Positions 32,992-59,240 of a stretch of DNA of 64,000 bases are shown in pieces (position 1 is the first letter of the stretch; every line of letters starts with the position of its first letter). The stretch lies in contig NC_064437.1 in the NCBI RefSeq assembly GCF_023343835.1, forward strand, positions 28,309,001 through 28,373,000, in the 5' to 3' direction. Source of the stretch: Lagopus muta. Taxonomy: Eukaryota; Chordata; Aves; Galliformes; Phasianidae. The translations under genes and the position numbers were made by a program. Under the pieces are notes generated by a model. The model was not told the DNA's origin. It was given only the letters and a program-made list of their open reading frames with translations, and did not search any database.

Positions 32992-33147
32992 AGGCACTGG
33001 TGGACTTGGAGCTTGAAAAGAATGCTAACGTTTTCATTCAGACATTAGGAGAAGGGGGCAAAAGTTACCAAGTATTTCCCAAACTCTCAAAAGTGTTTTC
33101 TCTTTGCAGAGTGGAAGGGGGGCAAGGCAAATGTGTAACTCTGCACG
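32992..33147 (+). repeat. Diverged partial unit fragment at left array edge
   Basis: Matches 34656-34816 inside the next unit (GGTGGACTTGGAGCTTGAAA, then CAAACTCTCAAAAGTGTTTT) but with several substitutions and a short gap. It is joined directly to the second exon at 33148-33154, skipping about 2.2 kb that lies between these parts in a normal unit. Confidence 0.85.
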
Positions 33148-33153
33148 TTGCAG

Positions 33154-33519
33154 TTACTGTGCTACTATCATCCCTATTTCCAGAGAGATCGTCTCCAGTG
33201 CCAAAGAAGATTCAAGCGGAGTCTTGGAGCTAGGAGGAGACCAGCTTCCTCCTTGCAGGCCTTCCAGTGGGGTTGGCAGGAGGGCCAGCAGAGCAGAAGC
33301 CTGCAGCCAGAGATGCAGTCAGGCGCTGCTGCACGGGCGGGCAGTGAGCTCCCTGTCGGCAGCTGCAATGCTGCTCCTGCTGCTGCTGCTGCTGCTGCAC
33401 ATCACAGCAGACGTCCAGCACCAAGCGGTCCTTTTCCACGGGGGCTGAGACCCGATAGCGGAGCTGGGGGTGATGGAGTTGGACGCCGCTACAACTTGCG
33501 CCCCAGAAAGCGCTGCTGA
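33154..33519 (+). pseudogene. Orphan second exon of the HSF-like gene
   Basis: The sequence is open and nearly identical to the second exons of the complete copies (121 codons plus stop, starting LLCYYHPYFQ and ending YNLRPRKRC). No first exon precedes it: homology to the other units starts only 6 bp upstream, at TTGCAG, so the branch point, polypyrimidine tract and whole upstream gene are missing. It keeps its AATAAA signal. It is best read as a truncated, non-functional remnant at the array boundary, although it could be spliced onto an unknown upstream transcript. Confidence 0.75.
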
Positions 33520-33563
33520 TGGCAGCAGTAGTGTAGGAGATAGTGTAGAGTCGTAGTTTAGAA

Positions 33564-33665
33564 AATAAATGTTTAAAATGCTTCTCCCTTGTCCTGTCCT
33601 GTTTCTTCGGTCTGACTGAAGGCTACTCTTCCTACGCCCAAGGGGGGGGGGGGGGGGGGGGGGGG
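33564..33665 (+). terminator. Poly(A) signal and 24-base G-run (orphan unit)
   Basis: AATAAA at 33564-33569, 45 bp after the stop, followed by a T/GT-rich stretch and a run of 24 G at 33642-33665. Confidence 0.7.
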
Positions 33666-35536
33666 TTGCCTTTAGGGAGCCTTCCATGAGTTTCCCCCAT
33701 CCCCGCCCCGTGGGTTTTGGCAAAGGTGCCAAACGCGAAGCAGGCACTGTGCGAAGCAAGCCTGATGCACGGAGTGATGGGAGCCCGGGGCGTGCAGGTG
33801 TGCATCTGGAGCTGCGCAAAGTGCCTGGTCCCTCTGCCTGCCTGTCCTCTGGGGGTGGGTGAGTGGGTGGGTGGGTGGGTGAGTGGGTGGGTGGGTGGGT
33901 GCCCCGGTGTCCCAGGGACAGGAGGTGTGCCGTCCTCGCTGTGCACTTCCTTCTGGCCCGCGTGTACTTTGAGGAAGTATGGCAGCTTCAAGCGGTTCAG
34001 TTTCTAGGATGGCTTCTAGGATGTGGCTCCTGGGCCAATCAGCAGGCTCCTTGGGTTACGCTTGAGGTAGCCCTTATCTTTCCCATTCTTCGTGCTCAAC
34101 TACTTCTGCCCTTTTAGGAATAAAACCAATTAGCCCTTTATTCACTGGTGTAACTGGTATGTGCCCCAGTACCAAAGTAAGAGTGGATGCAGGCTCCTTT
34201 GATGACTCCCTCTAGCTGGAGAGAACCCACCTCATCAGAGGGAATGCTTTAGACAGCACACATGGGCTTGTGTTACATCGCTGCTACTTGTGGCTTGGTT
34301 CACCTGCAGACCCGGTGATGAAGTGCACGTTGTGTGCGTTGGACTCACTTCCAATTGTGTCAGAGAAAGCGGAGCTGCAAAGGGCTGGTATTTGTCTGTG
34401 CTAACAGGAGGCTCACGTGCAGAACGTGCTGGAGTGCAATCATTTGTGCTATAGCAAATGCCTGCCTTCCTGGGACAAGGAGTTGGAGCGCAGCGCAGCT
34501 TAGTCTGTTTGTCACAGAATGCGTGTGAGGAGGTTGTGTTGAAGTCTGCCACTGTATCCTTTGCTTACAGAGGAAGGACTCAAACACTAGCGGAGGAGCT
34601 TTAAAGAGATACTCTGTCTTCAGTAGAGGAAAAAAGAGGTGTGCAGTACGTGATCAGGCGCTGGTGGACTTGGAGCTTGAAAAGAATGGAAACGCTTTCA
34701 TCAAGACATCAGGAGAAGGGGGCAAATGTTACCAAGTATTTCCCAAACTCTCAAAAGTGTTTTCTCTTTGCAGAGTGGGGGGAGGGGGGACGGTCGTGTA
34801 ACCTGGGAGCTCTGCAAAGGGAACAAAAGATTGCCGCTCAGGAAACGCCCTCTCCTGTTGCCTGTGCTGCTGGTTTGATGGGGAAAAGCAGGCTCGGGCA
34901 TTCCCTATTGCATTGATACATATTCCACTGCCAAGGGGTGCAGAGAAGGACAGCACTTACAAGCTAGATATCCATGTCATTTATTGCTTGCTGTGCTTCC
35001 ACGTGAGGGAACCTTTGACTCTCTACCTCTTTGAAGGGTTTATCACTCAATCAGTGCCTAGATATGAGAAGTCCTCAGAGGAGCTCTTCTTTCCTCTGAT
35101 GATCTTTCTGTTGGCCACCTGCTCTTCATGATGTGCTATTGTAAAAATTGGGCAATTTAGAGGGAAGGGAAGGATCTTGGGTTACAGGACGGTTGGAGAA
35201 ATCAAAGAGAAGTGTGTTCACCGTGTGCTAATCACCATCTTGGCTTGCTCTGAATCACGGAGTGACCAGTACAAGACAAGACTGTGGTGTCTAAGCATGA
35301 TTCCTTTTGAATTTTCCCTAAGAGGGGAACACAGGACAGGAGAAGTACGAATGAATCTCTACAGAATAAGGGATCGGAGGAATTCCTTCGTCTTTATCAT
35401 ATGTAAGCCGTATTTCTCACATTTGCTTCCTATAGTCAGACACAGAAAGCACCTGTTAGGCCATATATTGATATCTCTATGGCTGTATATGCATGTATGT
35501 CTGCCTACGTATATATATAAAACATACATATATATA
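33666..35536. other. Array spacer after the orphan exon
   Basis: About 1.9 kb without an accepted gene. It holds a GGGT/GAGT repeat tract (about 33853-33900, longer than in other units), a CCAAT motif in GGGCCAATCAGC (34035-34039), and a TA microsatellite just before the next promoter. Open frames of up to 149 codons (35177-35626) start at non-ATG codons and carry no motif. Their conservation simply follows from the recent duplication. Confidence 0.6.
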
Positions 35537-35630
35537 TATATAAAGCCAGTGAGGGCATTATTAAAGGAATACTCCTCGGGGAGGAAAATACAGGTATCTT
35601 TTTATGTGTTGGTTTGGGGAGCATAAATAG
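35537..35630 (+). promoter_or_regulatory. Candidate promoter, HSF-like gene 1
   Basis: Two TATA-like elements: TATATAAAG at 35537-35545, at the end of a TA microsatellite, and CATAAATAG at 35622-35630. They lie 195 and 110 bp before the first in-frame ATG. A 17-codon upstream frame (35650-35703) would be in the leader. Spacing is the same in all six copies. Confidence 0.5.
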
Positions 35631-35731
35631 CTGGGATCCTATTTCCTTCATGAACGTGAATCTGGCTGCCCCATTTTGCCAGCAAACAATCTCTGCTCTG
35701 TGATGCAACTGTGACGCTGTGGAACGTCTCC

Positions 35732-37390
35732 ATGGACACGTTTGTGGAGGCCCCCCTGCCCGCAGCACGGGTGCCATTGCGCTTCCTGCTGCTGGTGGGA
35801 GGACAAGCCTTGTTGGCTGTGCGCTTCCTGCTGCTGGTGGGAGGACAAGCCTTGTTGGCTGTGCGCTTCCTGCTGCTGGTGGGAGGACAAGCCTTGTTGG
35901 CTGTGCGCTTCCTGCTGCTGGTGGGAGGACAAGCCTTGTTGGCTGTGCGCTTCCTGCTGCTGGTGGGAGGACAAGCCTTGTTGGCTGTGCGCTTCCTGCT
36001 GCTGGTGGGAGGACAAGCCTTGTTGGCTGCGCGAGCGGTTGTGGACAGGAATTTCTGCCCAGGTGACAAATTCCAACTTGCAATGGAGACACCTTCCTCA
36101 GAAACATCGGGTGCCTCTGTTCCAAGCACCGAGTCGGCAGTCTCGGCATCTGCTGCCCGCCGGCTCGGTGCTAAAAGAGCAGCTGCGCATGCTGCCCTTG
36201 GACCTCTCCAAGAGGAGAAGGCTTCCCCATTTTCTCCCGGGGAAGTCAGTGCCAAAAGACGATGCCGCGGTCTGTCTGAGCAATGCTGCGGCTATGACAG
36301 TGACATGACATCGTGCTCCTTCCTCAACACCCTCTGGAAAGTTGTTGAAAGTGTTGGCTTCCAGTCCATTCGGTGGGGCGATGAGGGAGACTTCATTGTG
36401 ATTGAGGAGGCGTTCTTCAGAGCGGAAGTACTGGCCAGAGGAGGAACTCTCCAAGTCTTTGATGTTGGCAACATGAAAGATTTTGTCCGTCGCCTTCATC
36501 AGCATGGCTTCTACATCACGGACGCGGATTTGCCAACGTCTGCCCCATGTGCTCAGTTCCTAGCACAGGGAGCATCAATTTCCACTCCGAGCCAGGTACG
36601 TAGTCCCTCTAGCTGTGAGATGGCTCTCGGCACAGCGGCATTGGTGGCCAGCCAGTGCAAAGTGAGGTGGCTGACAGCTGGTGACACTTGGGTACTTGTG
36701 CTTCTGAGAACCCTCCATCACTCTGCGGCTGGCAAATGAGAGAAATGCAAGCAGGGGTGGTTATTACAAGGGCTGCTCTGCACGTAGTGCCTCCTCGTTT
36801 ATGTTGGCCCATGAAAGGTGGCAGCAGAGGGGCAGTGTGACAGAATGGCATGGGACGTGGCTGTGCGTATGAAACGAAGGTGTGCAACGGAATTCTTTTG
36901 TGTGGAAACGGCCCCCGAGAGTCCGCTCCGACGGTCTCTTGAGATTCCAATTCTCATGCCTTGTGTCTTTGTTTTCCCAGTCTTGAAATGGTGGTGACTA
37001 ACTCTTCCTCTTTGCATTTTGCAGTTACTGTGCTACTATCATCCCTATTTCCAGAGAGATCGTCTCCAGTGCCAAAGAAGATTCAAGCGGAGTCTTGGAG
37101 CTAGGAGGAGACCAGCTTCCTCCTTGCAGGCCTTCCAGTGGGGTTGGCAGGAGGGCCAGCAGAGCAGAAGCCTGCAGCCAGAGATGCAGTCAGGCGCTGC
37201 TGCACGGGCGGGCAGTGAGCTCCCTGTCGGCAGCTGCAATGCTGCTCCTGCTGCTGCTGCTGCTGCTGCACATCACAGCAGACGTCCAGCACCAAGCGGT
37301 CCTTTTCCACGGGGGCTGAGACCCGATAGCGGAGCTGGGGGTGATGGAGTTGGACGCCGCTACAACTTGCGCCCCAGAAAGCGCTGCTGA
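35732..37390 (+). CDS. HSF-like transcription factor, copy 1 (two exons)
   Basis: Predicted DNA-binding protein of the heat shock factor family, closest in layout to HSFY/HSFX. Exons are 35732-36595 and 37025-37390. The intron starts CAG/GTACGT, has a TGACTAAC branch site (36995-37002), ends TTTTGCAG, and is phase 0. From the first ATG the product is 409 residues; from a better-placed ATG at 36083 (GCAATGG) it is 292. In the 292-residue numbering the winged-helix domain starts at F80 (FLNTLWKVVES), with W85, W98 and the recognition-helix segment FVRRLHQHGF (134-143). It continues across the intron into LLCYYHPYFQRD, which parallels LKFYYNPNFKRG of human HSFY. Basic clusters (AKRR; RRFKR, ARRR) may be nuclear signals. 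No heptad-repeat trimerisation region is seen. A poly-Ala tract and a basic C-terminus (YNLRPRKRC) follow. Six 14-residue repeats precede residue 1 of the short form. Confidence 0.8.
35779..36030 (+). repeat. 42-bp minisatellite, 6 copies
   Basis: Unit begins GCGCTTCCTGCTGCTGGTGG and ends TTGTTGGCTGT (last unit GGCTGC). In the gene frame it encodes VRFLLLVGGQALLA. Copies are essentially identical. Confidence 0.97.
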
Positions 37391-37434
37391 TGGCAGCAGT
37401 AGTGTAGGAGATAGTGTAGAGTCGTAGTTTAGAA

Positions 37435-37539
37435 AATAAATGTTTAAAATGCTTCTCCCTTGTCCTGTCCTGTTTCTTCGGTCTGACTGAAGGCTACTCT
37501 TCCTACGCCCAAGGGGGGGGGGGGGGGGGGGGGGGGGGG
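37435..37539 (+). terminator. Poly(A) signal and 27-base G-run, gene 1
   Basis: AATAAA at 37435-37440, 45 bp after the stop codon, then a T/GT-rich stretch (CCTGTCCTGTTTCTTCGGTC) and 27 G at 37513-37539. Fits a cleavage site followed by a G-rich pause element. Confidence 0.7.
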
Positions 37540-39390
37540 TTGCCTTTAGGGAGCCTTCCATGAGTTTCCCCCATCCCCGCCCCGTGGGTTTTGGCAAAGG
37601 TGCCAAACGCAAAGCAGGCACTGTGCGAAGCAAGCCTGATGCACGGAGTGATGGGAGCCCGGGGCGTGCAGGTGTGCATCTGGAGCAGCGCAAAGTGCCT
37701 GGTCCCTCTGCCTGCCTGTCCTCTGGGGGTGGGTGAGTGGGTGGGTGGGTGGGTGCCCCGGTGTCCCAGGGACAGGAGGTGTGCCGTCCTCGCTGTGCAC
37801 TTCCTTCTGGCCCGCGTGTACTTTGAGGAAGTATGGCAGCTTCAAGCGGTTCAGTTTCTAGGATGGCTTCTAGGATGTGGCTCCTGGGCCAATCAGCAGG
37901 CTCCTTGGGTTACGCTTGAGGTAGCCCTTATCTTTCCCATTCTTCGTGCTCAACTACTTCTGCCCTTTTAGGAATAAAACCAATTAGCCCTTTATTCACT
38001 GGTGTAACTGGTATGTGCCCCAGTACCAAAGTAAGAGTGGATGCAGGCTCCTTTGATGACTCCCTCTAGCTGGAGAGAACCCACCTCATCAGAGGGAATG
38101 CTTTAGACAGCACACATGGGCTTGTGTTACATCGCTGCTACTTGTGGCTTGGTTCACCTGCAGACCCGGTGATGAAGTGCACGTTGTGTGCGTTGGACTC
38201 ACTTCCAATTGTGTCAGAGAAGGCGGAGCTGCAAAGGGCTGGTATTTGTCTGTGCTAACAGGAGGCTCACGTGCAGAACGTGCTGGAGTGCAATCATTTG
38301 TGCTATAGCAAATGCCTGCCTTCCTGGGACAAGGAGTTGGAGCGCAGCGCAGCTTAGTCTGTTTGTCACAGAATGCGTGTGAGGAGGTTGTGTTGAAGTC
38401 TGCCACTGTATCCTTTGCTTACAGAGGAAGGACTCAAACACTAGCGGAGGAGCTTTAAAGAGATACTCTGTCTTCAGTAGAGGAAAAAAGAGGTGTGCAG
38501 TACGTGATCAGGCGCTGGTGGACTTGGAGCTTGAAAAGAATGGAAACGCTTTCATCAAGACATCAGGAGAAGGGGGCAAATGTTACCAAGTATTTCCCAA
38601 ACTCTCAAAAGTGTTTTCTCTTTGCAGAGTGGGGGGAGGGGGGACGGTCGTGTAACCTGGGAGCTCTGCAAAGGGAACAAAAGATTGCCGCTCAGGAAAC
38701 GCCCTCTCCTGTTGCCTGTGCTGCTGGTTTGATGGGGAAAAGCAGGCTCGGGCATTCCCTATTGCATTGATACATATTCCACTGCCAAGGGGTGCAGAGA
38801 AGGACAGCACTTACAAGCTAGATATCCATGTCATTTATTGCTTGCTGTGCTTCCACGTGAGGGAACCTTTGACTCTCTACCTCTTTGAAGGGTTTATCAC
38901 TCAATCAGTGCCTAGATATGAGAAGTCCTCAGAGGAGCTCTTCTTTCCTCTGATGATCTTTCTGTTGGCCACCTGCTCTTCATGATGTGCTATTGTAAAA
39001 ATTGGGCAATTTAGAGGGAAGGGAAGGATCTTGGGTTACAGGACGGTTGGAGAAATCAAAGAGAAGTGTGTTCACCGTGTGCTAATCACCATCTTGGCTT
39101 GCTCTGAATCACGGAGTGACCAGTACAAGACAAGACTGTGGTGTCTAAGCATGATTCCTTTTGAATTTTCCCTAAGAGGGGAACACAGGACAGGAGAAGT
39201 ACGAATGAATCTCTACAGAATAAGGGATCGGAGGAATTCCTTCGTCTTTATCATATGTAAGCCGTATTTCTCACATTTGCTTCCTATAGTCAGACACAGA
39301 AAGCACCTGTTAGGCCATATATTGATATCTCTATGGCTGTATATGCATGTATGTCTGCCTACGTATATATATAAAACATACATATATATA
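37540..39390. other. Array spacer between genes 1 and 2
   Basis: No accepted gene. Contains the short GGGT tract (about 37726-37755), the CCAAT motif (37889-37893) and splice-acceptor-like CTTTGCAG and CACCTGCAG strings that could belong to unannotated upstream exons but have no coding support. Confidence 0.55.
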
Positions 39391-39484
39391 TATATAAAGC
39401 CAGTGAGGGCATTATTAAAGGAATACTCCTCGGGGAGGAAAATACAGGTATCTTTTTATGTGTTGGTTTGGGGAGCATAAATAG
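39391..39484 (+). promoter_or_regulatory. Candidate promoter, HSF-like gene 2
   Basis: TATATAAAG at 39391-39399 and CATAAATAG at 39476-39484, with the same distances to the ATG as in copy 1. Confidence 0.5.
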
Positions 39485-39585
39485 CTGGGATCCTATTTCC
39501 TTCATGAACGTGAATCTGGCTGCCCCATTTTGCCAGCAAACAATCTCTGCTCTGTGATGCAACTGTGACGCTGTGGAACGTCTCC

Positions 39586-41160
39586 ATGGACACGTTTGTG
39601 GAGGCCCCCCTGCCCGCAGCACGGGTGCCATTGCGCTTCCTGCTGCTGGTGGGAGGACAAGCCTTGTTGGCTGTGCGCTTCCTGCTGCTGGTGGGAGGAC
39701 AAGCCTTGTTGGCTGTGCGCTTCCTGCTGCTGGTGGGAGGACAAGCCTTGTTGGCTGTGCGCTTCCTGCTGCTGGTGGGAGGACAAGCCTTGTTGGCTGC
39801 GCGAGCGGTTGTGGACAGGAATTTCTGCCCAGGTGACAAATTCCAACTTGCAATGGAGACACCTTCCTCAGAAACATCGGGTGCCTCTGTTCCAAGCACC
39901 GAGTCGGCAGTCTCGGCATCTGCTGCCCGCCGGCTCGGTGCTAAAAGAGCAGCTGCGCATGCTGCCCTTGGACCTCTCCAAGAGGAGAAGGCTTCCCCAT
40001 TTTCTCCCGGGGAAGTCAGTGCCAAAAGACGATGCCGCGGTCTGTCTGAGCAATGCTGCGGCTATGACAGTGACATGACATCGTGCTCCTTCCTCAACAC
40101 CCTCTGGAAAGTTGTTGAAAGTGTTGGCTTCCAGTCCATTCGGTGGGGCGATGAGGGAGACTTCATTGTGATTGAGGAGGCGTTCTTCAGAGCGGAAGTA
40201 CTGGCCAGAGGAGGAACTCTCCAAGTCTTTGATGTTGGCAACATGAAAGATTTTGTCCGTCGCCTTCATCAGCATGGCTTCTACATCACGGACGCGGATT
40301 TGCCAACGTCTGCCCCATGTGCTCAGTTCCTAGCACAGGGAGCATCAATTTCCACTCCGAGCCAGGTACGTAGTCCCTCTAGCTGTGAGATGGCTCTCGG
40401 CACAGCGGCATTGGTGGCCAGCCAGTGCAAAGTGAGGTGGCTGACAGCTGGTGACACTTGGGTACTTGTGCTTCTGAGAACCCTCCATCACTCTGCGGCT
40501 GGCAAATGAGAGAAATGCAAGCAGGGGTGATTATTACAAGGGCTGCTCTGCACGTAGTGCCTCCTCGTTTATGTTGGCCCATGAAAGGTGGCAGCAGAGG
40601 GGCAGTGTGACAGAATGGCATGGGACGTGGCTGTGCGTATGAAACGAAGGTGTGCAACGGAATTCTTTTGTGTGGAAACGGCCCCCGAGAGTCCGCTCCG
40701 ACGGTCTCTTGAGATTCCAATTCTCATGCCTTGTGTCTTTGTTTTCCCAGTCTTGAAATGGTGGTGACTAACTCTTCCTCTTTGCATTTTGCAGTTACTG
40801 TGCTACTATCATCCCTATTTCCAGAGAGATCGTCTCCAGTGCCAAAGAAGATTCAAGCGGAGTCTTGGAGCTAGGAGGAGACCAGCTTCCTCCTTGCAGG
40901 CCTTCCAGTGGGGTTGGCAGGAGGGCCAGCAGAGCAGAAGCCTGCAGCCAGAGATGCAGTCAGGCGCTGCTGCACGGGCGGGCAGTGAGCTCCCTGTCGG
41001 CAGCTGCAATGCTGCTCCTGCTGCTGCTGCTGCTGCTGCACATCACAGCAGACGTCCAGCACCAAGCGGTCCTTTTCCACGGGGGCTGAGACCCGATAGC
41101 GGAGCTGGGGGTGATGGAGTTGGACGCCGCTACAACTTGCGCCCCAGAAAGCGCTGCTGA
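39586..41160 (+). CDS. HSF-like transcription factor, copy 2 (two exons)
   Basis: Exons 39586-40365 and 40795-41160; 381 residues from the first ATG, or 292 from the internal ATG at 39853. Outside the 14-residue repeats (four here) the predicted protein is identical to copy 1, including the whole winged-helix domain and basic tail. The intron keeps the same donor, branch site and acceptor. The intron carries an A at 40530 where copies 1, 3, 5 and 6 have G. The unit is marked by an insertion of about 40 bp after the poly(A) signal that it shares only with copy 3. Confidence 0.8.
39633..39800 (+). repeat. 42-bp minisatellite, 4 copies
   Basis: Same unit as in gene 1, four copies, open in all reading frames. 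Confidence 0.97.
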
Positions 41161-41204
41161 TGGCAGCAGTAGTGTAGGAGATAGTGTAGAGTCGTAGTTT
41201 AGAA

Positions 41205-41339
41205 AATAAATGTTTAAAATGCTTCTCCCTTGTCCTTCGGTTTCTTTGTTTCTTTGTTTCTTCGGTCTGACTTGTCCTTGTTTCTTCGGTCTGACTGAAG
41301 GCTACTCTTCCTACGCCCAAGAGGGGGGGGGGGGGGGGG
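41205..41339 (+). terminator. Poly(A) signal, insertion and 17-base G-run, gene 2
   Basis: AATAAA at 41205-41210. An extra stretch of about 40 bp (about 41236-41277), with TTTCTTTG repeats and a second copy of TTTCTTCGGTCTGACT, sits between the signal and the 17-G run (41323-41339). Confidence 0.7.
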
Positions 41340-43190: not shown

Positions 43191-43284
43191 TATATAAAGC
43201 CAGTGAGGGCATTATTAAAGGAATACTCCTCGGGGAGGAAAATACAGGTATCTTTTTATGTGTTGGTTTGGGGAGCATAAATAG
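43191..43284 (+). promoter_or_regulatory. Candidate promoter, HSF-like gene 3
   Basis: TATATAAAG (43191-43199) and CATAAATAG (43276-43284), spacing as in the other copies. Confidence 0.5.
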
Positions 43285-43385
43285 CTGGGATCCTATTTCC
43301 TTCATGAACGTGAATCTGGCTGCCCCATTTTGCCAGCAAACAATCTCTGCTCTGTGATGCAACTGTGACGCTGTGGAACGTCTCC

Positions 43386-44918
43386 ATGGACACGTTTGTG
43401 GAGGCCCCCCTGCCCGCAGCACGGGTGCCATTGCGCTTCCTGCTGCTGGTGGGAGGACAAGCCTTGTTGGCTGTGCGCTTCCTGCTGCTGGTGGGAGGAC
43501 AAGCCTTGTTGGCTGTGCGCTTCCTGCTGCTGGTGGGAGGACAAGCCTTGTTGGCTGCGCGAGCGGTTGTGGACAGGAATTTCTGCCCAGGTGACAAATT
43601 CCAACTTGCAATGGAGACACCTTCCTCAGAAACATCGGGTGCCTCTGTTCCAAGCACCGAGTCGGCAGTCTCGGCATCTGCTGCCCGCCGGCTCGGTGCT
43701 AAAAGAGCAGCTGCGCATGCTGCCCTTGGACCTCTCCAAGAGGAGAAGGCTTCCCCATTTTCTCCCGGGGAAGTCAGTGCCAAAAGACGATGCCGCGGTC
43801 TGTCTGAGCAATGCTGCGGCTATGACAGTGACATGACATCGTGCTCCTTCCTCAACACCCTCTGGAAAGTTGTTGAAAGTGTTGGCTTCCAGTCCATTCG
43901 GTGGGGCGATGAGGGAGACTTCATTGTGATTGAGGAGGCGTTCTTCAGAGCGGAAGTACTGGCCAGAGGAGGAACTCTCCAAGTCTTTGATGTTGGCAAC
44001 ATGAAAGATTTTGTCCGTCGCCTTCATCAGCATGGCTTCTACATCACGGACGCGGATTTGCCAACGTCTGCCCCATGTGCTCAGTTCCTAGCACAGGGAG
44101 CATCAATTTCCACTCCGAGCCAGGTACGTAGTCCCTCTAGCTGTGAGATGGCTCTCGGCACAGCGGCATTGGTGGCCAGCCAGTGCAAAGTGAGGTGGCT
44201 GACAGCTGGTGACACTTGGGTACTTGTGCTTCTGAGAACCCTCCATCACTCTGCGGCTGGCAAATGAGAGAAATGCAAGCAGGGGTGGTTATTACAAGGG
44301 CTGCTCTGCACGTAGTGCCTCCTCGTTTATGTTGGCCCATGAAAGGTGGCAGCAGAGGGGCAGTGTGACAGAATGGCATGGGACGTGGCTGTGCGTATGA
44401 AACGAAGGTGTGCAACGGAATTCTTTTGTGTGGAAACGGCCCCTGAGAGTCCGCTCCGACGGTCTCTTGAGATTCCAATTCTCATGCCTTGTGTCTTTGT
44501 TTTCCCAGTCTTGAAATGGTGGTGACTAACTCTTCCTCTTTGCATTTTGCAGTTACTGTGCTACTATCATCCCTATTTCCAGAGAGATCGTCTCCAGTGC
44601 CAAAGAAGATTCAAGCGGAGTCTTGGAGCTAGGAGGAGACCAGCTTCCTCCTTGCAGGCCTTCCAGTGGGGTTGGCAGGAGGGCCAGCAGAGCAGAAGCC
44701 TGCAGCCAGAGATGCAGTCAGGCGCTGCTGCACGGGCGGGCAGTGAGCTCCCTGTCGGCAGCTGCAATGCTGCTCCTGCTGCTGCTGCTGCTGCTGCACA
44801 TCACAGCAGACGTCCAGCACCAAGCGGTCCTTTTCCACGGGGGCTGAGACCCGATAGCGGAGCTGGGGGTGATGGAGTTGGACGCCGCTACAACTTGCGC
44901 CCCAGAAAGCGCTGCTGA
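43386..44918 (+). CDS. HSF-like transcription factor, copy 3 (two exons)
   Basis: Exons 43386-44123 and 44553-44918; 367 residues from the first ATG, or 292 from the ATG at 43611. It has the fewest minisatellite copies (three). The non-repeat protein is identical to copies 1 and 2. In the intron, 44454 is T (a CpG to TpG change shared with copy 4), while 44288 keeps the common G. Confidence 0.8.
43433..43558 (+). repeat. 42-bp minisatellite, 3 copies
   Basis: The smallest allele in the window; unit sequence as in gene 1. Confidence 0.97.
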
Positions 44919-44962
44919 TGGCAGCAGTAGTGTAGGAGATAGTGTAGAGTCGTAGTTTAGAA

Positions 44963-45097
44963 AATAAATGTTTAAAATGCTTCTCCCTTGTCCTTCGGTT
45001 TCTTTGTTTCTTTGTTTCTTCGGTCTGACTTGTCCTTGTTTCTTCGGTCTGAATGAAGGCTACTCTTCCTACGCCCAAGAGGGGGGGGGGGGGGGGG
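44963..45097 (+). terminator. Poly(A) signal, insertion and 17-base G-run, gene 3
   Basis: AATAAA at 44963-44968; the same insertion as in gene 2 (about 44994-45036); 17 G at 45081-45097. Confidence 0.7.
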
Positions 45098-46948: not shown

Positions 46949-47042
46949 TATATAAAGCCAGTGAGGGCATTATTAAAGGAATACTCCTCGGGGAGGAAAA
47001 TACAGGTATCTTTTTATGTGTTGGTTTGGGGAGCATAAATAG
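46949..47042 (+). promoter_or_regulatory. Candidate promoter, HSF-like gene 4
   Basis: TATATAAAG (46949-46957) and CATAAATAG (47034-47042). Confidence 0.5.
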
Positions 47043-47143
47043 CTGGGATCCTATTTCCTTCATGAACGTGAATCTGGCTGCCCCATTTTGCCAGCAAACA
47101 ATCTCTGCTCTGTGATGCAACTGTGACGCTGTGGAACGTCTCC

Positions 47144-48566
47144 ATGGACACGTTTGTGGAGGCCCCCCTGCCCGCAGCACGGGTGCCATTGCGCTTCCTG
47201 CTGCTGGTGGGAGGACAAGCCTTGTTGGCTGTGCGCTTCCTGCTGCTGGTGGGAGGACAAGCCTTGTTGGCTGTGCGCTTCCTGCTGCTGGTGGGAGGAC
47301 AAGCCTTGTTGGCTGTGCGCTTCCTGCTGCTGGTGGGAGGACAAGCCTTGTTGGCTGCGCGAGCGGTTGTGGACAGGAATTTCTGCCCAGGTGACAAATT
47401 CCAACTTGCAATGGAGACACCTTCCTCAGAAACATCGGGTGCCTCTGTTCCAAGCACCGAGTCGGCAGTCTCGGCATCTGCTGCCCGCCGGCTCGGTGCT
47501 AAAAGAGCAGCTGCGCATGCTGCCCTTGGACCTCTCCAAGAGGAGAAGGCTTCCCCATTTTCTCCCGGGGAAGTCAGTGCCAAAAGACGATGCCGCGGTC
47601 TGTCTGAGCAATGCTGCGGCTATGACAGTGACATGACATCGTGCTCCTTCCTCAACACCCTCTGGAAAGTTGTTGAAAGTGTTGGCTTCCAGTCCATTCG
47701 GTGGGGCGATGAGGGAGACTTCATTGTGATTGAGGAGGCGTTCTTCAGAGCGGAAGTACTGGCCAGAGGAGGAACTCTCCAAGTCTTTGATGTTGGCAAC
47801 ATGAAAGATTTTGTCCGTCGCCTTCATCAGCATGGCTTCTACATCACGGACGCGGATTTGCCAACGTCTGCCCCATGTGCTCAGTTCCTAGCACAGGGAG
47901 CATCAATTTCCACTCCGAGCCAGGTACGTAGTCCCTCTAGCTGTGAGATGGCTCTCGGCACAGCGGCATTGGTGGCCAGCCAGTGCAAAGTGAGGTGGCT
48001 GACAGCTGGTGACACTTGGGTACTTGTGCTTCTGAGAACCCTCCATCACTCTGCGGCTGGCAAATGAGAGAAATGCAAGCAGGGGTGATTATTACAAGGG
48101 CTGCTCTGCACGTAGTGCCTCCTCGTTTATGTTGGCCCATGAAAGGTGGCAGCAGAGGGGCAGTGTGACAGAATGGCATGGGACGTGGCTGTGCGTATGA
48201 AACGAAGGTGTGCAACGGAATTCTTTTGTGTGGAAACGGCCCCTGAGAGTCCGCTCCGACGGTCTCTTGAGATTCCAATTCTCATGCCTTGTGTCTTTGT
48301 TTTCCCAGTCTTGAAATGGTGGTGACTAACTCTTCCTCTTTGCATTTTGCAGTTACTGTGCTACTATCATCCCTATTTCCAGAGAGATCGTCTCCAGTGC
48401 CAAAGAAGATTCAAGCGGAGTCTTGGAGCTAGGAGGAGACCAGCTTCCTCCTTGCAGGCCTTCCAGTGGGGTTGGCAGGAGGGCCAGCAGAGCAGAAGCC
48501 TGCAGCCAGAGATGCAGTCAGGCGCTGCTGCACGGGCGGGCAGTGAGCTCCCTGGCAGCAGCTGCA

Positions 48567-48597
<31 letters not shown>

Positions 48598-48718
48598 ACA
48601 TCACAGCAGACGTCCAGCACCAAGCGGTCCTTTTCCACGGGGGCTGAGACCCGATAGCGGAGCTGGGGGTGATGGAGTTGGACGCCGCTACAACTTGCGC
48701 CCCAGGAAGCGCTGCTGA
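47144..48718 (+). CDS. HSF-like transcription factor, copy 4 (two exons)
   Basis: Exons 47144-47923 and 48353-48718; 381 residues from the first ATG, or 292 from the ATG at 47411. The first exon matches copies 1-3 (four repeats). The second exon differs before and inside the Ala tract (ELPGSSCN instead of ELPVGSCN; Pro inside the tract replaced by Ala, giving ten Ala in a row) and has CCCAGGAAGC instead of CCCAGAAAGC near the end (silent). The first and last of these changes are shared with copy 6, not with copy 5. The intron carries both the A variant (48088) and the T variant (48244). Confidence 0.8.
47191..47358 (+). repeat. 42-bp minisatellite, 4 copies
   Basis: Four copies, as in gene 2. 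Confidence 0.97.
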
Positions 48719-48762
48719 TGGCAGCAGTAGTGTAGGAGATAGTGTAGAGTCGTAGTTTAGAA

Positions 48763-48840
48763 AATAAATGTTTAAAATGCTTCTCCCTTGTCCTGTCCTG
48801 TTTCTTCGGTCTGACTGAAGGCTACTCTTCCTACGCCCAA

Positions 48841-48869
<29 letters not shown>
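48763..48869 (+). terminator. Poly(A) signal and 29-base G-run, gene 4
   Basis: AATAAA at 48763-48768 and the longest G-run of the array, 29 G at 48841-48869. The insertion seen in units 2 and 3 is absent. Confidence 0.7.
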
Positions 48870-48871
<2 letters not shown>

Positions 48872-50720
48872 GCCTTTAGGGAGCCTTCCATGAGTTTCCC
48901 CCATCCCCGCCCCGTGGGTTTTGGCAAAGGTGCCAAACGCAAAGCAGGCACTGTGCGAAGCAAGCCTGATGCACGGAGTGATGGGAGCCCGGGGCGTGCA
49001 GGTGTGCATCTGGAGCAGCGCAAAGTGCCTGGTCCCTCTGCCTGCCTGTCCTCTGGGGGTGGGTGAGTGGGTGGGTGGGTGGGTGCCCCGGTGTCCCAGG
49101 GACAGGAGGTGTGCCGTCCTCGCTGTGCACTTCCTTCTGGCCCGCGTGTACTTTGAGGAAGTATGGCAGCTTCAAGCGGTTCAGTTTCTAGGATGGCTTC
49201 TAGGATGTGGCTCCTGGGCCAATCAGCAGGCTCCTTGGGTTACGCTTGAGGTAGCCCTTATCTTTCCCATTCTTCGTGCTCAACTACTTCTGCCCTTTTA
49301 GGAATAAAACCAATTAGCCCTTTATTCACTGGTGTAACTGGTATGTGCCCCAGTACCAAAGTAAGAGTGGATGCAGGCTCCTTTGATGACTCCCTCTAGC
49401 TGGAGAGAACCCACCTCATCAGAGGGAATGCTTTAGACAGCACACATGGGCTTGTGTTACATCGCTGCTACTTGTGGCTTGGTTCACCTGCAGACCCGGT
49501 GATGAAGTGCACGTTGTGTGCGTTGGACTCACTTCCAATTGTGTCAGAGAAGGCGGAGCTGCAAAGGGCTGGTATTTGTCTGTGCTAACAGGAGGCTCAC
49601 GTGCAGAACGTGCTGGAGTGCAATCATTTGTGCTATAGCAAATGCCTGCCTTCCTGGGACAAGGAGTTGGAGCGCAGCGCAGCTTAGTCTGTTTGTCACA
49701 GAATGCGTGTGAGGAGGTTGTGTTGAAGTCTGCCACTGTATCCTTTGCTTACAGAGGAAGGACTCAAACACTAGCGGAGGAGCTTTAAAGAGATACTCTG
49801 TCTTCAGTAGAGGAAAAAAGAGGTGTGCAGTACGTGATCAGGCGCTGGTGGACTTGGAGCTTGAAAAGAATGGAAACGCTTTCATCAAGACATCAGGAGA
49901 AGGGGGCAAATGTTACCAAGTATTTCCCAAACTCTCAAAAGTGTTTTCTCTTTGCAGAGTGGGGGGAGGGGGGACGGTCGTGTAACCTGGGAGCTCTGCA
50001 AAGGGAACAAAAGATTGCCGCTCAGGAAACGCCCTCTCCTGTTGCCTGTGCTGCTGGTTTGATGGGGAAAAGCAGGCTCGTGCATTCCCTATTGCATTGA
50101 TACATATTCCACTGCCAAGGGGTGCAGAGAAGGACAGCACTTACAAGCTAGATATCCATGTCATTTATTGCTTGCTGTGCTTCCACGTGAGGGAACCTTT
50201 GACTCTCTACCTCTTTGAAGGGTTTATCACTCAATCAGTGCCTAGATATGAGAAGTCCTCAGAGGAGCTCTTCTTTCCTCTGATGATCTTTCTGTTGGCC
50301 ACCTGCTCTTCATGATGTGCTATTGTAAAAATTGGGCAATTTAGAGGGAAGGGAAGGATCTTGGGTTACAGGACGGTTGGAGAAATCAAAGAGAAGTGTG
50401 TTCACCGTGTGCTAATCACCATCTTGGCTTGCTCTGAATCACGGAGTGACCAGTACAAGACAAGACTGTGGTGTCTAAGCATGATTCCTTTTGAATTTTC
50501 CCTAAGAGGGGAACACAGGACAGGAGAAGTACGAATGAATCTCTACAGAATAAGGGATCGGAGGAATTCCTTCGTCTTTATCATATGTAAGCCGTATTTC
50601 TCACATTTGCTTCCTATAGTCAGACACAGAAAGCACCTGTTAGGCCATATATTGATATCTCTATGGCTGTATATGCATGTATGTCTGCCTACGTATATAT
50701 ATAAAACATACATATATATA
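48870..50720. other. Array spacer between genes 4 and 5
   Basis: No accepted gene. Same landmarks; carries the CTCGTGCATT variant (near 50080), shared with the next spacer only. Confidence 0.55.
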
Positions 50721-50814
50721 TATATAAAGCCAGTGAGGGCATTATTAAAGGAATACTCCTCGGGGAGGAAAATACAGGTATCTTTTTATGTGTTGGTTTG
50801 GGGAGCATAAATAG
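50721..50814 (+). promoter_or_regulatory. Candidate promoter, HSF-like gene 5
   Basis: TATATAAAG (50721-50729) and CATAAATAG (50806-50814). Confidence 0.5.
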
Positions 50815-50915
50815 CTGGGATCCTATTTCCTTCATGAACGTGAATCTGGCTGCCCCATTTTGCCAGCAAACAATCTCTGCTCTGTGATGCAACTGTGACG
50901 CTGTGGAACGTCTCC

Positions 50916-52658
50916 ATGGACACGTTTGTGGAGGCCCCCCTGCCCGCAGCACGGGTGCCATTGCGCTTCCTGCTGCTGGTGGGAGGACAAGCCTTGTTGG
51001 CTGTGCGCTTCCTGCTGCTGGTGGGAGGACAAGCCTTGTTGGCTGTGCGCTTCCTGCTGCTGGTGGGAGGACAAGCCTTGTTGGCTGTGCGCTTCCTGCT
51101 GCTGGTGGGAGGACAAGCCTTGTTGGCTGTGCGCTTCCTGCTGCTGGTGGGAGGACAAGCCTTGTTGGCTGTGCGCTTCCTGCTGCTGGTGGGAGGACAA
51201 GCCTTGTTGGCTGTGCGCTTCCTGCTGCTGGTGGGAGGACAAGCCTTGTTGGCTGTGCGCTTCCTGCTGCTGGTGGGAGGACAAGCCTTGTTGGCTGCGC
51301 GAGCGGTTGTGGACAGGAATTTCTGCCCAGGTGACAAATTCCAACTTCCAATGGAGACACCTTCCTCAGAAACATCGGGTGTCTCTGTTCCAAGCACCGA
51401 GTCGGCAGTCTCGGCATCTGCTGCCCGCCAGCTCGGTGCTAAAAGAGCAGCTGCGCATGCTGCCCTTGGACCTCTCCAAGAGGAGAAGGCTTCCCCATTT
51501 TCTCCCGGGGAAGTCAGTGCCAAAAGACGATGCCGCGGTCTGTCTGAGCAATGCTGCGGCTATGACAGTGACATGACATCGTGCTCCTTCCTCAACACCC
51601 TCTGGAAAGTTGTTGAAAGTGTTGGCTTCCAGTCCATTCGGTGGGGCGATGAGGGAGACTTCATTGTGATTGAGGAGGCGTTCTTCAGAGCGGAAGTACT
51701 GGCCAGAGGAGGAACTCTCCAAGTCTTTGATGTTGGCAACATGAAAGATTTTGTCCGTCGCCTTCATCAGCATGGCTTCTACATCACGGACGCGGATTTG
51801 CCAACGTCTGCCCCATGTGCTCAGTTCCTAGCACAGGGAGCATCAATTTCCACTCCGAGCCAGGTACGTAGTCCCTCTAGCTGTGAGATGGCTCTCGGCA
51901 CAGCGGCATTGGTGGCCAGCCAGTGCAAAGTGAGGTGGCTGACAGCTGGTGACACTTGGGTACTTGTGCTTCTGAGAACCCTCCATCACTCTGCGGCTGG
52001 CAAATGAGAGAAATGCAAGCAGGGGTGGTTATTACAAGGGCTGCTCTGCACGTAGTGCCTCCTCGTTTATGTTGGCCCATGAAAGGTGGCAGCAGAGGGG
52101 CAGTGTGACAGAATGGCATGGGACGTGGCTGTGCGTATGAAACGAAGGTGTGCAACGGAATTCTTTTGTGTGGAAACGGCCCCCGAGAGTCCGCTCCGAC
52201 GGTCTCTTGAGATTCCAATTCTCATGCCTTGTGTCTTTGTTTTCCCAGTCTTGAAATGGTGGTGACTAACTCTTCCTCTTTGCATTTTGCAGTTACTGTG
52301 CTACTATCATCCCTATTTCCAGAGAGATCGTCTCCAGTGCCAAAGAAGATTCAAGCGGAGTCTTGGAGCTAGGAGGAGACCAGCTTCCTCCTTGCAGGCC
52401 TTCCAGTGGGGTTGGCAGGAGGGCCAGCAGAGCAGAAGCCTGCAGCCAGAGATGCAGTCAGGCGCTGCTGCACGGGCGGGCAGTGAGCTCCCTGTCGGCA
52501 GCTGCAATGCTGCTCCTGCTGCTGCTGCTGCTGCTGCACATCACAGCAGACGTCCAGCACCAAGCGGTCCTTTTCCACGGGGGCTGAGACCCGATAGCGG
52601 AGCTGGGGGTGATGGAGTTGGACGCCGCTACAACTTGCGCCCCAGAAAGCGCTGCTGA
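50916..52658 (+). CDS. HSF-like transcription factor, copy 5 (two exons)
   Basis: Exons 50916-51863 and 52293-52658; 437 residues from the first ATG, or 292 from the ATG at 51351. Eight minisatellite copies. Relative to copy 1 the short form differs at residues 11 (Ala to Val) and 27 (Arg to Gln), both in the presumably disordered N-terminal part; the DNA-binding domain is unchanged. The base three before the internal ATG is C (TTCCAATGG) rather than G, which weakens its Kozak context. The second exon matches copies 1-3. Confidence 0.8.
50963..51298 (+). repeat. 42-bp minisatellite, 8 copies
   Basis: Eight nearly identical units. Confidence 0.97.
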
Positions 52659-52702
52659 TGGCAGCAGTAGTGTAGGAGATAGTGTAGAGTCGTAGTTTAG
52701 AA

Positions 52703-52790
52703 AATAAATGTTTAAAATGCTTCTCCCTTGTCCTGTCCTGTTTCTTCGGTCTGACTGAAGGCTACTCTTCCTACGCCCAAGGGGGGGGGG
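52703..52790 (+). terminator. Poly(A) signal and 10-base G-run, gene 5
   Basis: AATAAA at 52703-52708; the shortest G-run, 10 G at 52781-52790. Confidence 0.7.
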
Positions 52791-54646
52791 TTGCCTTTAG
52801 GGAGCCTTCCATGAGTTTCCCCCATCCCCGCCCCGTGGATTTTGGCAAAGGTGCCAAACGCGAAGCAGGCACTTTGCAAAGCAAGCCTGATGCACGGAGT
52901 GATGGGAGCCCGGGGCGTGCAGGTGTGCATCTGGAGCAGCGCAAAGTGCCTGGTCCCTCTGCCTGCCTGTCCTCTGGGGGTGGGTGGGGGGTGGCTGGGT
53001 GGGTGGGTGCCCCGGTGTCCCAGGGACAGGAGGTGTGCCGTCCTCACTGTGCACTTCCTTCTGGCCCGCGTGTACTTTGAGGAAGTATGGCAGCTTCAAG
53101 CGGTTCAGTTTCTAGGATGGCTTCTAGGATGTGGCTCCTGGGCCAATCAGCAGGCTCCTTGGGTTAAGCTTGAGGTAGCCCTTATCTTTCCCATTCTTCG
53201 TGCTCAACTACTTCTGCCCTTTTAGGAATAAAACCAATTAGCCCTTTATTCACTGGTGTAACTGGTATGTGCCCCAGTACCAAAGTAAGAGTGGATGCAG
53301 GCTCCTTTGATGACTCCCTCTAGCTGGAGAGAACCCACCTCATCAGAGGGAATGCTTTAGACAGCACACATGGGCTTGTGTTACATCGCTGCTACTTGTG
53401 GCTTGGTTCACCTGCAGACCCGGTGATGAAGTGCACGTTGTGTGCGTTGGACTCACTTCCAATTGTGTCAGAGAAAGCGGAGCTGCAAAGGGCTGGTATT
53501 TGTCTGTGCTAACAGGAGGCTCACGTGCAGAACGTGCTGGAGTGCAATCATTTGTGCTATAGCAAATGCCTGCCTTCCTGGGACAAGGAGTTGGAGCGCA
53601 GCGCAGCTTAGTCTGTTTGTCACAGAATGCGTGTGAGGAGGTTGTGTTGAAGTCTGCCACTGTATCCTTTGCTTACAGAGGAAGGACTCAAACACTAGCG
53701 GAGGAGCTTTAAAGAGATACTCTGTCTTCAGTAGAGGAAAAAAGAGGTGTGCAGTACGTGATCAGGTGCTGGTGGACTTGGAGCTTGAAAAGAATGGAAA
53801 CGCTTTCATCAAGACATCAGGAGAAGCTGGCAAATGTTACCAAGTATTTCCCAAACTCTCAAAAGTGTTTTCTCTTTGCAGAGTGGGGGGAGGGGGGACG
53901 GTCGTGTAACCTGGGAGCTCTGCAAAGGGAACAAAAGATTGCCGCTCAGGAAACGCCCTCTCCTGTTGCCTGTGCTGCTGGTTTGATGGGGAAAAGCAGG
54001 CTCGTGCATTCCCTATTGCATTGATACATATTCCACTGCCAAGGGGTGCAGAGAAGGACAGCACTTACAAGCTAGATATCCATGTCATTTATTGCTTGCT
54101 GTGCTTCCACGTGAGGGAACCTTTGACTCTCTACCTCTTTGAAGGGTTTATCACTCAATCAGTGCCTAGATATGAGAAGTCCTCAGAGGAGCTCTTCTTT
54201 CCTCTGATGATCTTTCTGTTGGCCACCTGCTCTTCATGATGTGCTATTGTAAAAATTGGGCAATTTAGAGGGAAGGGAAGGATCTTGGGTTACAGGACGG
54301 TTGGAGAAATCAAAGAGAAGTGTGTTCACCGTGTGCTAATCACCATCTTGGCTTGCTCTGAATCACGGAGTGACCAGTACAAGACAAGACTGTGGTGTCT
54401 AAGCATGATTCCTTTTGAATTTTCCCTAAGAGGGGAACACAGGACAGGAGAAGTACGAATGAATCTCTACAGAATAAGGGATCGGAGGAATTCCTTCGTC
54501 TTTATCATATGCAAGTCGTATTTCTCACATTTGCTTCCTATAGTCAGACACAGAAAGCACCTGTTAGGCCATATATTGATATCTCTATGGCTGTATATGC
54601 ATGTATGTCTGCCTACGTATATATATAAAACATACATATATATATA
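52791..54646. other. Array spacer between genes 5 and 6
   Basis: No accepted gene. The GGGT tract is altered (about 52977-53010, with GGGGGGTGGCTGGGT). It shares GAGAAAGCGG (about 53470) with the leftmost spacer only; the four spacers between have GAGAAGGCGG. Confidence 0.55.
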
Positions 54647-54740
54647 TATATAAAGCCAGTGAGGGCATTATTAAAAGAATACTCCTCGGGGAGGAAAATA
54701 CAGGTATCTTTTTATGTGTTGGTTTGGGGAGCATAAATAG
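54647..54740 (+). promoter_or_regulatory. Candidate promoter, HSF-like gene 6
   Basis: TATATAAAG (54647-54655) and CATAAATAG (54732-54740). The TA microsatellite just upstream is one dinucleotide longer than in the other copies. Confidence 0.5.
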
Positions 54741-54841
54741 CTGGGATCCTATTTCCTTCATGAACGTGAATCTGGCTGCCCCATTTTGCCAGCAAACAAT
54801 CTCTGCTCTGTGATGCAACTGTGACGCTGTGGAACGTCTCC

Positions 54842-56480
54842 ATGGACACGTTTGTGGAGGCCCCCCTGCCTGCAGCACGGGTGCCATTGCGCTTCCTGCT
54901 GCTGGTGGGAGGACAAGCCTTGTTGGCTGTGCGCTTCCTGCTGCTGGTGGGAGGACAAGCCTTGTTGGCTGTGCGCTTCCTGCTGCTGGTGGGAGGACAA
55001 GCCTTGTTGGCTGTGCGCTTCCTGCTGCTGGTGGGAGGACAAGCCTTGTTGGCTGTGCGCTTCCTGCTGCTGGTGGGAGGACAAGCCTTGTTGGCTGTGC
55101 GCTTCCTGCTGCTGGTGGGAGGACAAGCCTTGTTGGCTGTGCGCTTCCTGCTGCTGGTGGGAGGACAAGCCTTGTTGGCTGTGCGCTTCCTGCTGCTGGT
55201 GGGAGGACAAGCCTTGTTGGCTGTGCGCTTCCTGCTGCTGGTGGGAGGACAAGCCTTGTTGGCTGCGCGAGCGGTTGTGGACAGGAATTTCTGCCCAGGT
55301 GACAAATTCCAACTTCCAATGGAGACACCTTCCTCAGAAACATCGGGTGCCTCTGTTCCAAGCACCGAGTCGGCAGTCTCGGCATCTGCTGCCCGCCGGC
55401 TCGGTGCTAAAAGAGCAGCTGCGCATGCTGCCCTTGGACCTCTCCAAGAGGAGAAGGCTTCCCCATTTTCTCCCGGGGAAGTCAGTGCCAAAAGACGATG
55501 CCGCGGTCTGTCTGAGCAATGCTGCGGCTATGACAGTGACATGACATCGTGCTCCTTTCTCAACACCCTCTGGAAAGTTGTTGAAAGTGTTGGCTTCCAG
55601 TCCATTCGGTGGGGCGATGAGGGAGACTTCATTGTGATTGAGGAGGCGTTCTTCAGAGCGGAAGTACTGGCCAGAGGAGGAACTCTCCAAGTCTTTGATG
55701 TTGGCAACATGAAAGATTTTGTCCGTCGCCTTCATCAGCATGGCTTCTACATCACGGACGCGGATTTGCCAACGTCTGCCCCATGTGCTCAGTTCCTAGC
55801 ACAGGGAGCATCAATTTCCACTCCGAGCCAGGTACGTAGTCCCTCTAGCTGTGAGATGGCTCTCGGCACAGCGGCATTGGTGGCCAGCCAGTGCAAAGTG
55901 AGGTGGCTGACAGCTGGTGACACTTGGGTACTTGTGCTTCTGAGAACCCTCCATCACTCTGCGGCTGGCAAATGAGAGAAATGCAAGCAGGGGTGGTTAT
56001 TACAAGGGCTGCTCTGCACGTAGTGCCTCCTTGTTTATGTTGGCCCATGAAAGGTGGCAGCAGAGGGGCAGTGTGACAGAATGGCATGGGACGTGGCTGT
56101 GCGTATGAAACGAAGGTGTGCAACGGAATTCTTTTGTGTGGAAACGGCCCCCGAGAGTCCGCTCCGACGGTCTCTTGAGATTCCAAATCTCATGCCTTGT
56201 ATCTTTGTTTTCCCAGTCTTGAAATGGTGGTGACTAACTCTTCCTCTTTGCATTTTGCAGTTACTCTGCTACTATCATCCCTATTTCCAGAGAGATCGTC
56301 TCCAGTGCCAAAGAAGATTCAAGCGGAGTCTTGGAGCTAGGAGGAGACCAGCTTCCTCCTTGCAGGCCTTCCAGTGGGGTTGGCAGGAGGGCCAGCAGAG
56401 CAGAAGCCTGCAGCCAGACATGCAGTCAGGTGCTGCTGCACGGGCGGGCAGTGAGCTCCCTGGCAGCAGCTGCAATGCTG

Positions 56481-56511
<31 letters not shown>

Positions 56512-56632
56512 ACATCACAGCAGACGTCCAGCACCAAGCGGTCCTTTTCCACGGGGGCTGAGACCCGATAGCGGAGCTGGGGGTGATGGAGTTGGACGCC
56601 GCTACAACTTGCGCCCCAGGAAGCGCTGCTGA
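54842..56632 (+). CDS. HSF-like transcription factor, copy 6 (two exons)
   Basis: Exons 54842-55831 and 56261-56632; 453 residues from the first ATG, the longest copy, or 294 from the ATG at 55319. Nine minisatellite units. The first exon from the internal ATG matches copy 1, but like copy 5 it has C three bases before that ATG. The second exon has Glu to Asp in LQPDMQSG, GSS instead of VGS, and two extra Ala codons in the Ala tract. It is the last complete copy; its unit is cut off about 640 bp after the stop. Confidence 0.8.
54889..55266 (+). repeat. 42-bp minisatellite, 9 copies
   Basis: The largest allele in the window, nine units (378 bp). Confidence 0.97.
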
Positions 56633-56676
56633 TGGCAGCAGTAGTGTAGGAGATAGTGTAGAGTCGTAGTTTAGAA

Positions 56677-56780
56677 AATAAATGTTTAAAATGCTTCTCC
56701 CTTGTCCTGTCCTGTTTCTTCGGTCTGACTGAAGGCTACTCTTCCTACGCCCAAGGGGGGGGGGGGGGGGGGGGGGGGGG
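56677..56780 (+). terminator. Poly(A) signal and 26-base G-run, gene 6
   Basis: AATAAA at 56677-56682; 26 G at 56755-56780. Confidence 0.7.
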
Positions 56781-57268
56781 TTGCCTTTAGGGAGCCTTCC
56801 ATGTGTTTCCCCCATCCCCGCCCCGTGGGTTTTGGCAAAGGTGCCAAACGCGAAGCAGGCACTGTGCGAAGCAAGCCTGATGCACGGAGTGATGGGAGCC
56901 CGGGGCGTGCAGGTGTGCAGCTGGAGCTGCGCAAAGTGCCTGGTCCCTCTGCCTGCCTGTCCTCTGGGGGTGGGTGAGTGGGTGGGTGGGTGGGTGCCCC
57001 GGTGTCCCAGGGACAGGAGGTGTGCCGTCCTCACTGTGCACTTCCTTCTGGCCCGCGTGTACTTTGAGGAAGTATGGCAGCTTCAAGCGGTTCAGTTTCT
57101 AGGATGGCTTCTAGGATGTGGCTCCTGGGCCAATCAGCAGGCTCCTTGGGTTACGCTTGAGGTAGCCCTTATCTTTCCCATTCTTCGTGCTCAACTACTT
57201 CTGCCCTTTTAGGAATAAAACCAATTAGCCCTTTATTCACTGGTGTAACTGGTATGTGCCCCAGTAAA
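56781..57268. other. Truncated spacer at right array edge
   Basis: Follows the other spacers through the GGGT tract and CCAAT motif up to GGTATGTGCCCCAGTA at about 57268, where homology stops and CR1 sequence starts. Confidence 0.85.

Positions 57269-59188: not shown

Positions 59189-59240
<52 letters not shown>

Follow-up and report, generated by a model that had tools for sequence, protein, structure and literature searches.

In the rock ptarmigan Lagopus muta, six full repeat units of 3758-3987 bases, each carrying a two-exon gene with a heat shock factor (HSF) domain, lie head to tail downstream of a truncated unit. The array falls in the window, by which we mean the whole 64,000-base stretch that was analysed (contig C8:28309001-28373000) and which contains 0 N bases. 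Unit boundaries were inferred, and positions are those of the window unless a contig is named.

32992-34170, plus strand: U0, truncated first unit, with exon 2 from 33154, 3′ flank and AATAAA retained, and promoter, exon 1 and intron deleted
34171-38024, plus strand: U1, exon 1 36083-36595, intron 36596-37024, exon 2 (coding sequence and stop) 37025-37390, 292 aa
38025-41824, plus strand: U2, exon 1 39853-40365, exon 2 (coding sequence and stop) 40795-41160, 292 aa
41825-45582, plus strand: U3, exon 1 43611-44123, exon 2 (coding sequence and stop) 44553-44918, 292 aa
45583-49354, plus strand: U4, exon 1 47411-47923, exon 2 (coding sequence and stop) 48353-48718, 292 aa
49355-53278, plus strand: U5, exon 1 51351-51863, exon 2 (coding sequence and stop) 52293-52658, 292 aa
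53279-57265, plus strand: U6, exon 1 55319-55831, exon 2 (coding sequence and stop) 56261-56632, 294 aa
37435-37440, plus strand: AATAAA poly(A) signal of U1 (the other signals start at 33564, 41205, 44963, 48763, 52703 and 56677)

In all six full units exon 1 (513 nt counted from the ATG) and exon 2 are intact, and they are joined across a 429-nt, phase-0 intron of the form GTACGT...TTGCAG (GT-AG). Five of the six products have 292 aa, and that of U6 has 294. A first-pass annotation of this DNA, made from its letters alone, had described six intact two-exon genes in head-to-tail order, and all six frames are indeed intact. The 36595/37025 junction and 292-residue length that it gave are exact, and its TATA elements, GT-AG introns and AATAAA signals recur in every full unit, the last also in U0. 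Its count of six full units stands; what it overlooked is the partial seventh, U0, at the left end. The first 400 bases of exon 2 in U0 are 100% identical to the U1 counterpart, 33139-34170 is 97.3% identical to 37010-38024, and 32992-33114 is 93.5% identical to 34656-34778 of a unit.

The flanks hold 177 ORFs, and the five put to Pfam yielded no host gene. A broken minus-strand ORF at window 12.9-13.3 kb that weakly resembles RNase H (E 0.017, under the Pfam cut-off) is perhaps a degenerate retroviral relic. A perfect (AAT)17 microsatellite lies at window 59190-59240.

Upstream region of the units

35621-35634, plus strand: TATA-like element GCATAAATAGCTGG of U1 (also at 39475, 43275, 47033, 50805 and 54731)
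35726-35739, plus strand: 14-bp near-palindrome GTCTCCATGGACAC of U1 (also at 39580, 43380, 47138, 50910 and 54836)
35778-36033, plus strand: 42-bp minisatellite in the leader of U1 (also 39632-39803, 43432-43561, 47190-47361, 50962-51301 and 54888-55269), 3-9 copies

The TATA-like sequence GCATAAATAG is present in all six full units, and similar sequence aligns in the paralogs at C8:21.1 Mb and C1:78.6 Mb. A CRE-like TGATGTCA occurs in several paralogs and is, judged by eye, altered in the array. Forms related to the near-palindrome GTCTCCATGGACAC also precede several paralogs. In RFX2 target genes of spermiogenesis the X-box is a 14-bp inverted repeat (PMC4498915), and we offer GTCTCCATGGACAC as a lead, a candidate X-box-like RFX site with weak statistics. 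An X-box with compensatory changes was demoted to this rank because 1257 of 20000 shuffles of the right halves reached the observed score (44/56 pairs) and because palindromic 14-mers occur in the flanks, where 109 of 39587 are at least 6/7 palindromic. The best match to GTCTCCATGGACAC is poorly palindromic at C1:78.6, C1:69.1 and four more C1/C10 loci.

We read the 42-bp minisatellite as untranslated leader, since copies in a second array on C8 have 41-bp units that would shift the frame. It could instead code for a hydrophobic N-terminal extension from an upstream ATG (35732 in U1). From there an open frame runs into exon 1 in all six window units and in an inverted copy elsewhere on C8, and the database model of the turkey protein P0002 starts likewise. 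Such an extension is improbable, however, because the upstream in-frame Met is absent from five of the six second-array copies and 41-bp units break the frame in the four of those six that were inspected; a single-copy paralog also has a stop just 5′.

The HSF domain and its recognition helix

The HSF fold, first suggested by a few motifs, is confirmed. Pfam HSF_DNA-bind matches residues 80-193, spanning both exons, with E=5e-13 (49.9 bits vs a cut-off of 22), and it matches all 40 aligned relatives scanned, which were picked from 107 found. A PDB sequence search returned chains of HSF5, HSF4, HSF2, HSF1 and yeast- or fungus-type HSF domains. The query in the protein, Pfam and PDB searches had 293 aa, one Ala above the true 292. 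The best protein match is P0001, 'heat shock transcription factor, X-linked-like [Lagopus muta]', at 99% identity, so the gene family is already named in public annotation, and the bird genome guessed from the letters is a bird genome.

The AlphaFold model of P0001 (mean pLDDT 58.5, pTM 0.40) reaches high confidence in two stretches only, roughly residues 81-150 and 171-190, and its order of helices and strands fits an HSF domain. All 40 Foldseek matches to this model (E<=0.001) were HSF/Skn7 DNA-binding domains, with HSF5 the best. Neither Pfam nor the model, whose confidence is low there, gave a second domain beyond the HSF domain. As to the HR-A/B trimerization coiled coil of HSF1, 2 and 4, the low-confidence region shows no helix past residue 195; HSF5 is an HSF without HR domains according to a 2025 review (PMC12366260). 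The product is basic, with a mass of 31.6 kDa.

The canonical HSF recognition-helix residues, which we take to be R71, Q72, N74 and Y76 in HSF1 numbering, are R, R, H and H in the array (FVRRLHQHGF), so R71 alone is kept. Among 36 relatives, the Arg71 position holds Arg in 26, His in 5, Gln in 3 and Cys in 2. Gln is found at the Gln72 position in 21, and His at the Asn74 position in 35 and at the Tyr76 position in 35. The 56 other rows (parsed from 60 taken by id range, a few short-clade rows included) keep Arg71 in 39, Gln72 in 50, Asn74 in 43 and Tyr76 in 48. Since the base-contacting Arg is missing from 17 of these 56, as it is from 10 of the 36, its loss is not specific to the short clade; that clade's mark is the His pair at Asn74/Tyr76. 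Because the array keeps the Arg but has changed its neighbors, its domain is predicted to recognize nGAAn sites more weakly or with a shifted specificity. Against a DNA-binding role, loss of the base-contacting Arg in many relatives suggests that DNA binding may be decaying across the wider family.

Two arrays on an autosome

The bLagMut1 genome (165 contigs, 1.0267 Gb; PMC10320755) matches exon 1 DNA in at least 20 places. Thirteen of these are at 99-100% identity, all on C8, in keeping with the recent, near-identical amplification proposed at first pass; the remaining matches are one at 76% (C23), one at 75% (C1) and five at 67-68% (C16). Six of the 13 copies lie at 27.53-27.55 Mb, one is inverted at 28.14 Mb, and six are in the window. 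All 13 frames are intact, with GT-AG introns of 429 or 433 bases, and five of the six second-array copies and the inverted copy encode 296 aa, four codons longer. In a tree of exon 1, intron and exon 2, whose bootstrap had not settled, the window array is a clade (100/100) and the seven other copies form a second, its six tandem members grouping at 99/95 with the inverted copy as their sister.

Two further stretches resemble the unit. C23:7468747-7469249, the 76% match, is perhaps a degenerate copy, as it is missing from the HSF domain hits. In the left flank of the 27.53-Mb array (L011 2470-2711), pieces about 80% identical to the unit are perhaps an older decayed copy.

Units this nearly identical could be produced by an assembler that falsely duplicated one gene. 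We think this very improbable, as the units have 3-9 minisatellite copies, unequal lengths and single-base differences, and the second array, 0.8 Mb distant, is of a diverged type. The assembly also combines HiFi and Hi-C data, at a mean coverage of 57.75x (PMC10320755).

C8 measures 65.9 Mb (65,877,600 bases) and carries two DM-domain genes (5.1 and 6.2 Mb), a PAX gene (47.4 Mb) and a single-copy HSFY-like gene (21.1 Mb). C59 has three consecutive DM hits at 26.5 Mb, PAX hits at 75 Mb, and HIT and ATP-synthase hits; because of these we take it to be Z, presuming the identity and Z linkage of the DMRT-like triplet and the other marker genes. The HIT and ATP-synthase searches gave hits on C59 and found no clear W copy. 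C8 itself is not the W chromosome, being oversized and having too many autosomal markers. The 38 HSF profile hits in the genome are spread over C1, C2, C3, C8, C10, C11, C15, C16 and C23.

The first-pass annotation had gone on to suggest sex linkage, and a sex-linked ampliconic family would have a precedent in mammals, where the Y carries HSFY, and the X carries HSFX, in multiple copies (PMC12366260). We rejected this reading as scarcely credible: all 13 copies at 99-100% lie on C8, an autosome with autosomal markers, and none of the 38 HSF hits is on C59. The copies are more than 99% identical in exon 1 and homogenized, as sex-chromosome ampliconic genes are, and do not share the sex-chromosome location of such genes. 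The autosomal amplification of this HSFX/HSFY-family gene is real and well resolved.

Within the window array the mean difference is 0.19% in exon 1, 0.48% in the intron and 0.79% in exon 2; between the arrays it is 0.68%, 3.07% and 1.2%. Exon 1 diverges less than the intron (p 0.013, from rounded counts), a contrast that is less clear for exon 2. Upstream W-INV and A-INV distances of 17-21%, probably due to misaligned minisatellites, were left out. At an assumed bird rate of about 2e-9 per site per year, intron divergence suggests a separation of about 8 million years for the two arrays and of about 1 million years for copies inside the window array. W1 and A2 differ by four synonymous and two nonsynonymous changes (dS 0.019, dN 0.003), neither of the latter inside the DNA-binding domain. 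Fisher p is 0.03 for W1-A2 and 0.01 for W1-INV, in tests that rest on six or seven changes, and domain dN/dS between W1 and five paralog rows is about 0.24-0.40. Gene conversion may contribute partly to the low exon divergence.

A selfish or neutral tandem expansion, of a unit that duplicates readily and encodes proteins that do little, might also have built the array, perhaps close to where a chromosome once ended or two were fused. In turkey, chicken, guineafowl and two quails, genes related to the one at C8:21.1 Mb occupy contigs of 26.9-30.2 Mb, and C8 therefore resembles two ancestral galliform chromosomes fused near 29-30 Mb. The arrays (27.5-28.4 Mb) possibly lie close to this join and may adjoin an ancestral chromosome end. 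One unit, U0, has lost exon 1, as neutral expansion would allow. The GC content, 52.7% in the array where the flanks have 36-37% and the C8:21.1 Mb gene has 42%, would be compatible with biased gene conversion, although the HSFX-like gene at C11:33.4 Mb has 51-55% GC with no array seen. We nevertheless consider neutral expansion rather unlikely, given that 13 of 13 frames are intact, that exon 1 diverges less than the intron, and that nonsynonymous changes are rarer per site than synonymous ones.

Relatives and the reason for amplification

Our family tree has 51 rows and 124 columns: 37 of the 107 proteins, 11 rows from the ptarmigan genome, one PDB row and two provisional human rows that we take to be HSFY1 and HSFX1. 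The array and turkey P0002, its nearest relative outside Lagopus (77-79% identity), group at 100/99, and chicken P0004, Bambusicola P0005 and ptarmigan C1:78.6 Mb join them on the next branch (98/86). The bird short clade, gharial and the provisional human rows form one group (95/87), which supports the HSFX/HSFY assignment made at first pass. The array thus falls with these human rows and away from HSF4, HSF5 and insect HSF1, in a tree that does not fix the basal order. Two older lineages, C16 and C8:21.1 Mb, stand apart; grouping C16 or the C8:21.1 group with the array was rejected (p 4e-38 and 7e-11), as was an exclusive grouping of the array with the provisional human HSFX row (AU p 2.6e-70), all of these groups having been named after the tree was seen. 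Two other arrangements of the HSFX-like birds were not rejected (AU p 0.17 and 0.19). Human HSFX1, cuckoo, condor and HSF5 sit on long branches and their placement is unsure.

A phase-0 intron before the LLxYYxP strand is shared by the array, C8:21.1, C1:78.6, C16, C1:96.1, C1:69.1 and C11:33.4. The HSFX-like ptarmigan genes at C1:96.1 Mb and C11:33.4 Mb have the intron position, phase and HSF domain of the array, but they carry an RQLN-type helix and a C-terminal CPTCTC, both of which the array proteins lack; the CPTCTC motif is found in two of three spliced HSFX-like loci. The chicken 'HSFY-like' cluster (P0004, on a 196-Mb contig) belongs to a related clade at 60-62% identity. Together with ptarmigan C1:78.6 Mb it is the sister branch to the array, and the key Arg of P0004 is Gln. 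Protein database entries, which are not loci, number 31 for chicken (P0004), 15 for ptarmigan (vs 13 loci found), 23 for goose and 30 for mallard. If the 31 chicken entries correspond to loci, the expansions in chicken and in ptarmigan took place on different branches.

A 2025 review states that high-confidence HSFX/HSFY orthologues are known from mammals only (PMC12366260). The bird and gharial proteins found here suggest that this range is too narrow, and a remark in an earlier pig paper has HSFY seemingly identifiable in birds (PMC4460688). Searches of openly licensed papers in PubMed Central listed none that, by its title or the start of its abstract, is about amplified HSFY/HSFX-like genes in birds; a Steppe Eagle genome paper contains the words (PMC13254548).

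The parallel with mammalian HSFY drawn at first pass holds, in that both belong to the HSFX/HSFY subfamily, have an HSF domain and were amplified in particular lineages; its description as convergence fits less well than repeated amplification within one gene family. Mammalian HSFY is on the Y, with about 70 copies in cattle and about 100 in pig (PMC3049798, PMC4460688), whereas the ptarmigan array is an autosomal tandem with an altered recognition helix. Mammalian HSFX, X-linked and multicopy, is of the same subfamily, and a sister copy of the array genes is called 'X-linked-like' in the database, but the array is not on Z. Mouse has an HSFY-related gene that is likewise autosomal (PMC3477149); that gene is processed and single, while the array genes are tandem and have introns.

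The reading that we think probable is of an autosomal bird HSFX/HSFY-family tandem array, one of two, that is maintained, transcribed in the germ line and encodes a DNA-binding product. Unequal crossing-over and gene conversion would expand and homogenize such an array. A TATA-type promoter would drive joint transcription of its copies in the germ line, the 31.6-kDa protein would bind DNA via its winged helix with a specificity moved off the canonical nGAAn element, and copy number would set dosage. Our best guess, offered with a little less assurance, is that these genes are expressed in male germ cells, because HSFY is both amplified and testis-expressed in cattle and pig (PMC3049798, PMC4460688); we infer a germline role for them.

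HSFY amplification is usually framed as Y-chromosome biology, and a parallel on a bird autosome, where the copies are intact and homogenized, offers a natural control. Should the family amplify with no sex linkage, the gene's germ-line job becomes the likelier cause. It is tempting, and for now quite tentative, to propose that bursts of the HSFX/HSFY family recur on bird autosomes, that a germline role (dosage or sperm conflict) and not sex linkage drives them, and that the galliform helix was retuned to a new specificity.

Other HSF-domain copies lie elsewhere in the ptarmigan genome. C16:10.07-10.66 Mb (L016-L019) holds a second multicopy HSFY-like family of five copies in GC-rich units, represented by P0022. 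Further copies on C1, C10 and C11 (L020-L027, L029 and L030) are HSFX-like except L023, and several have stops.
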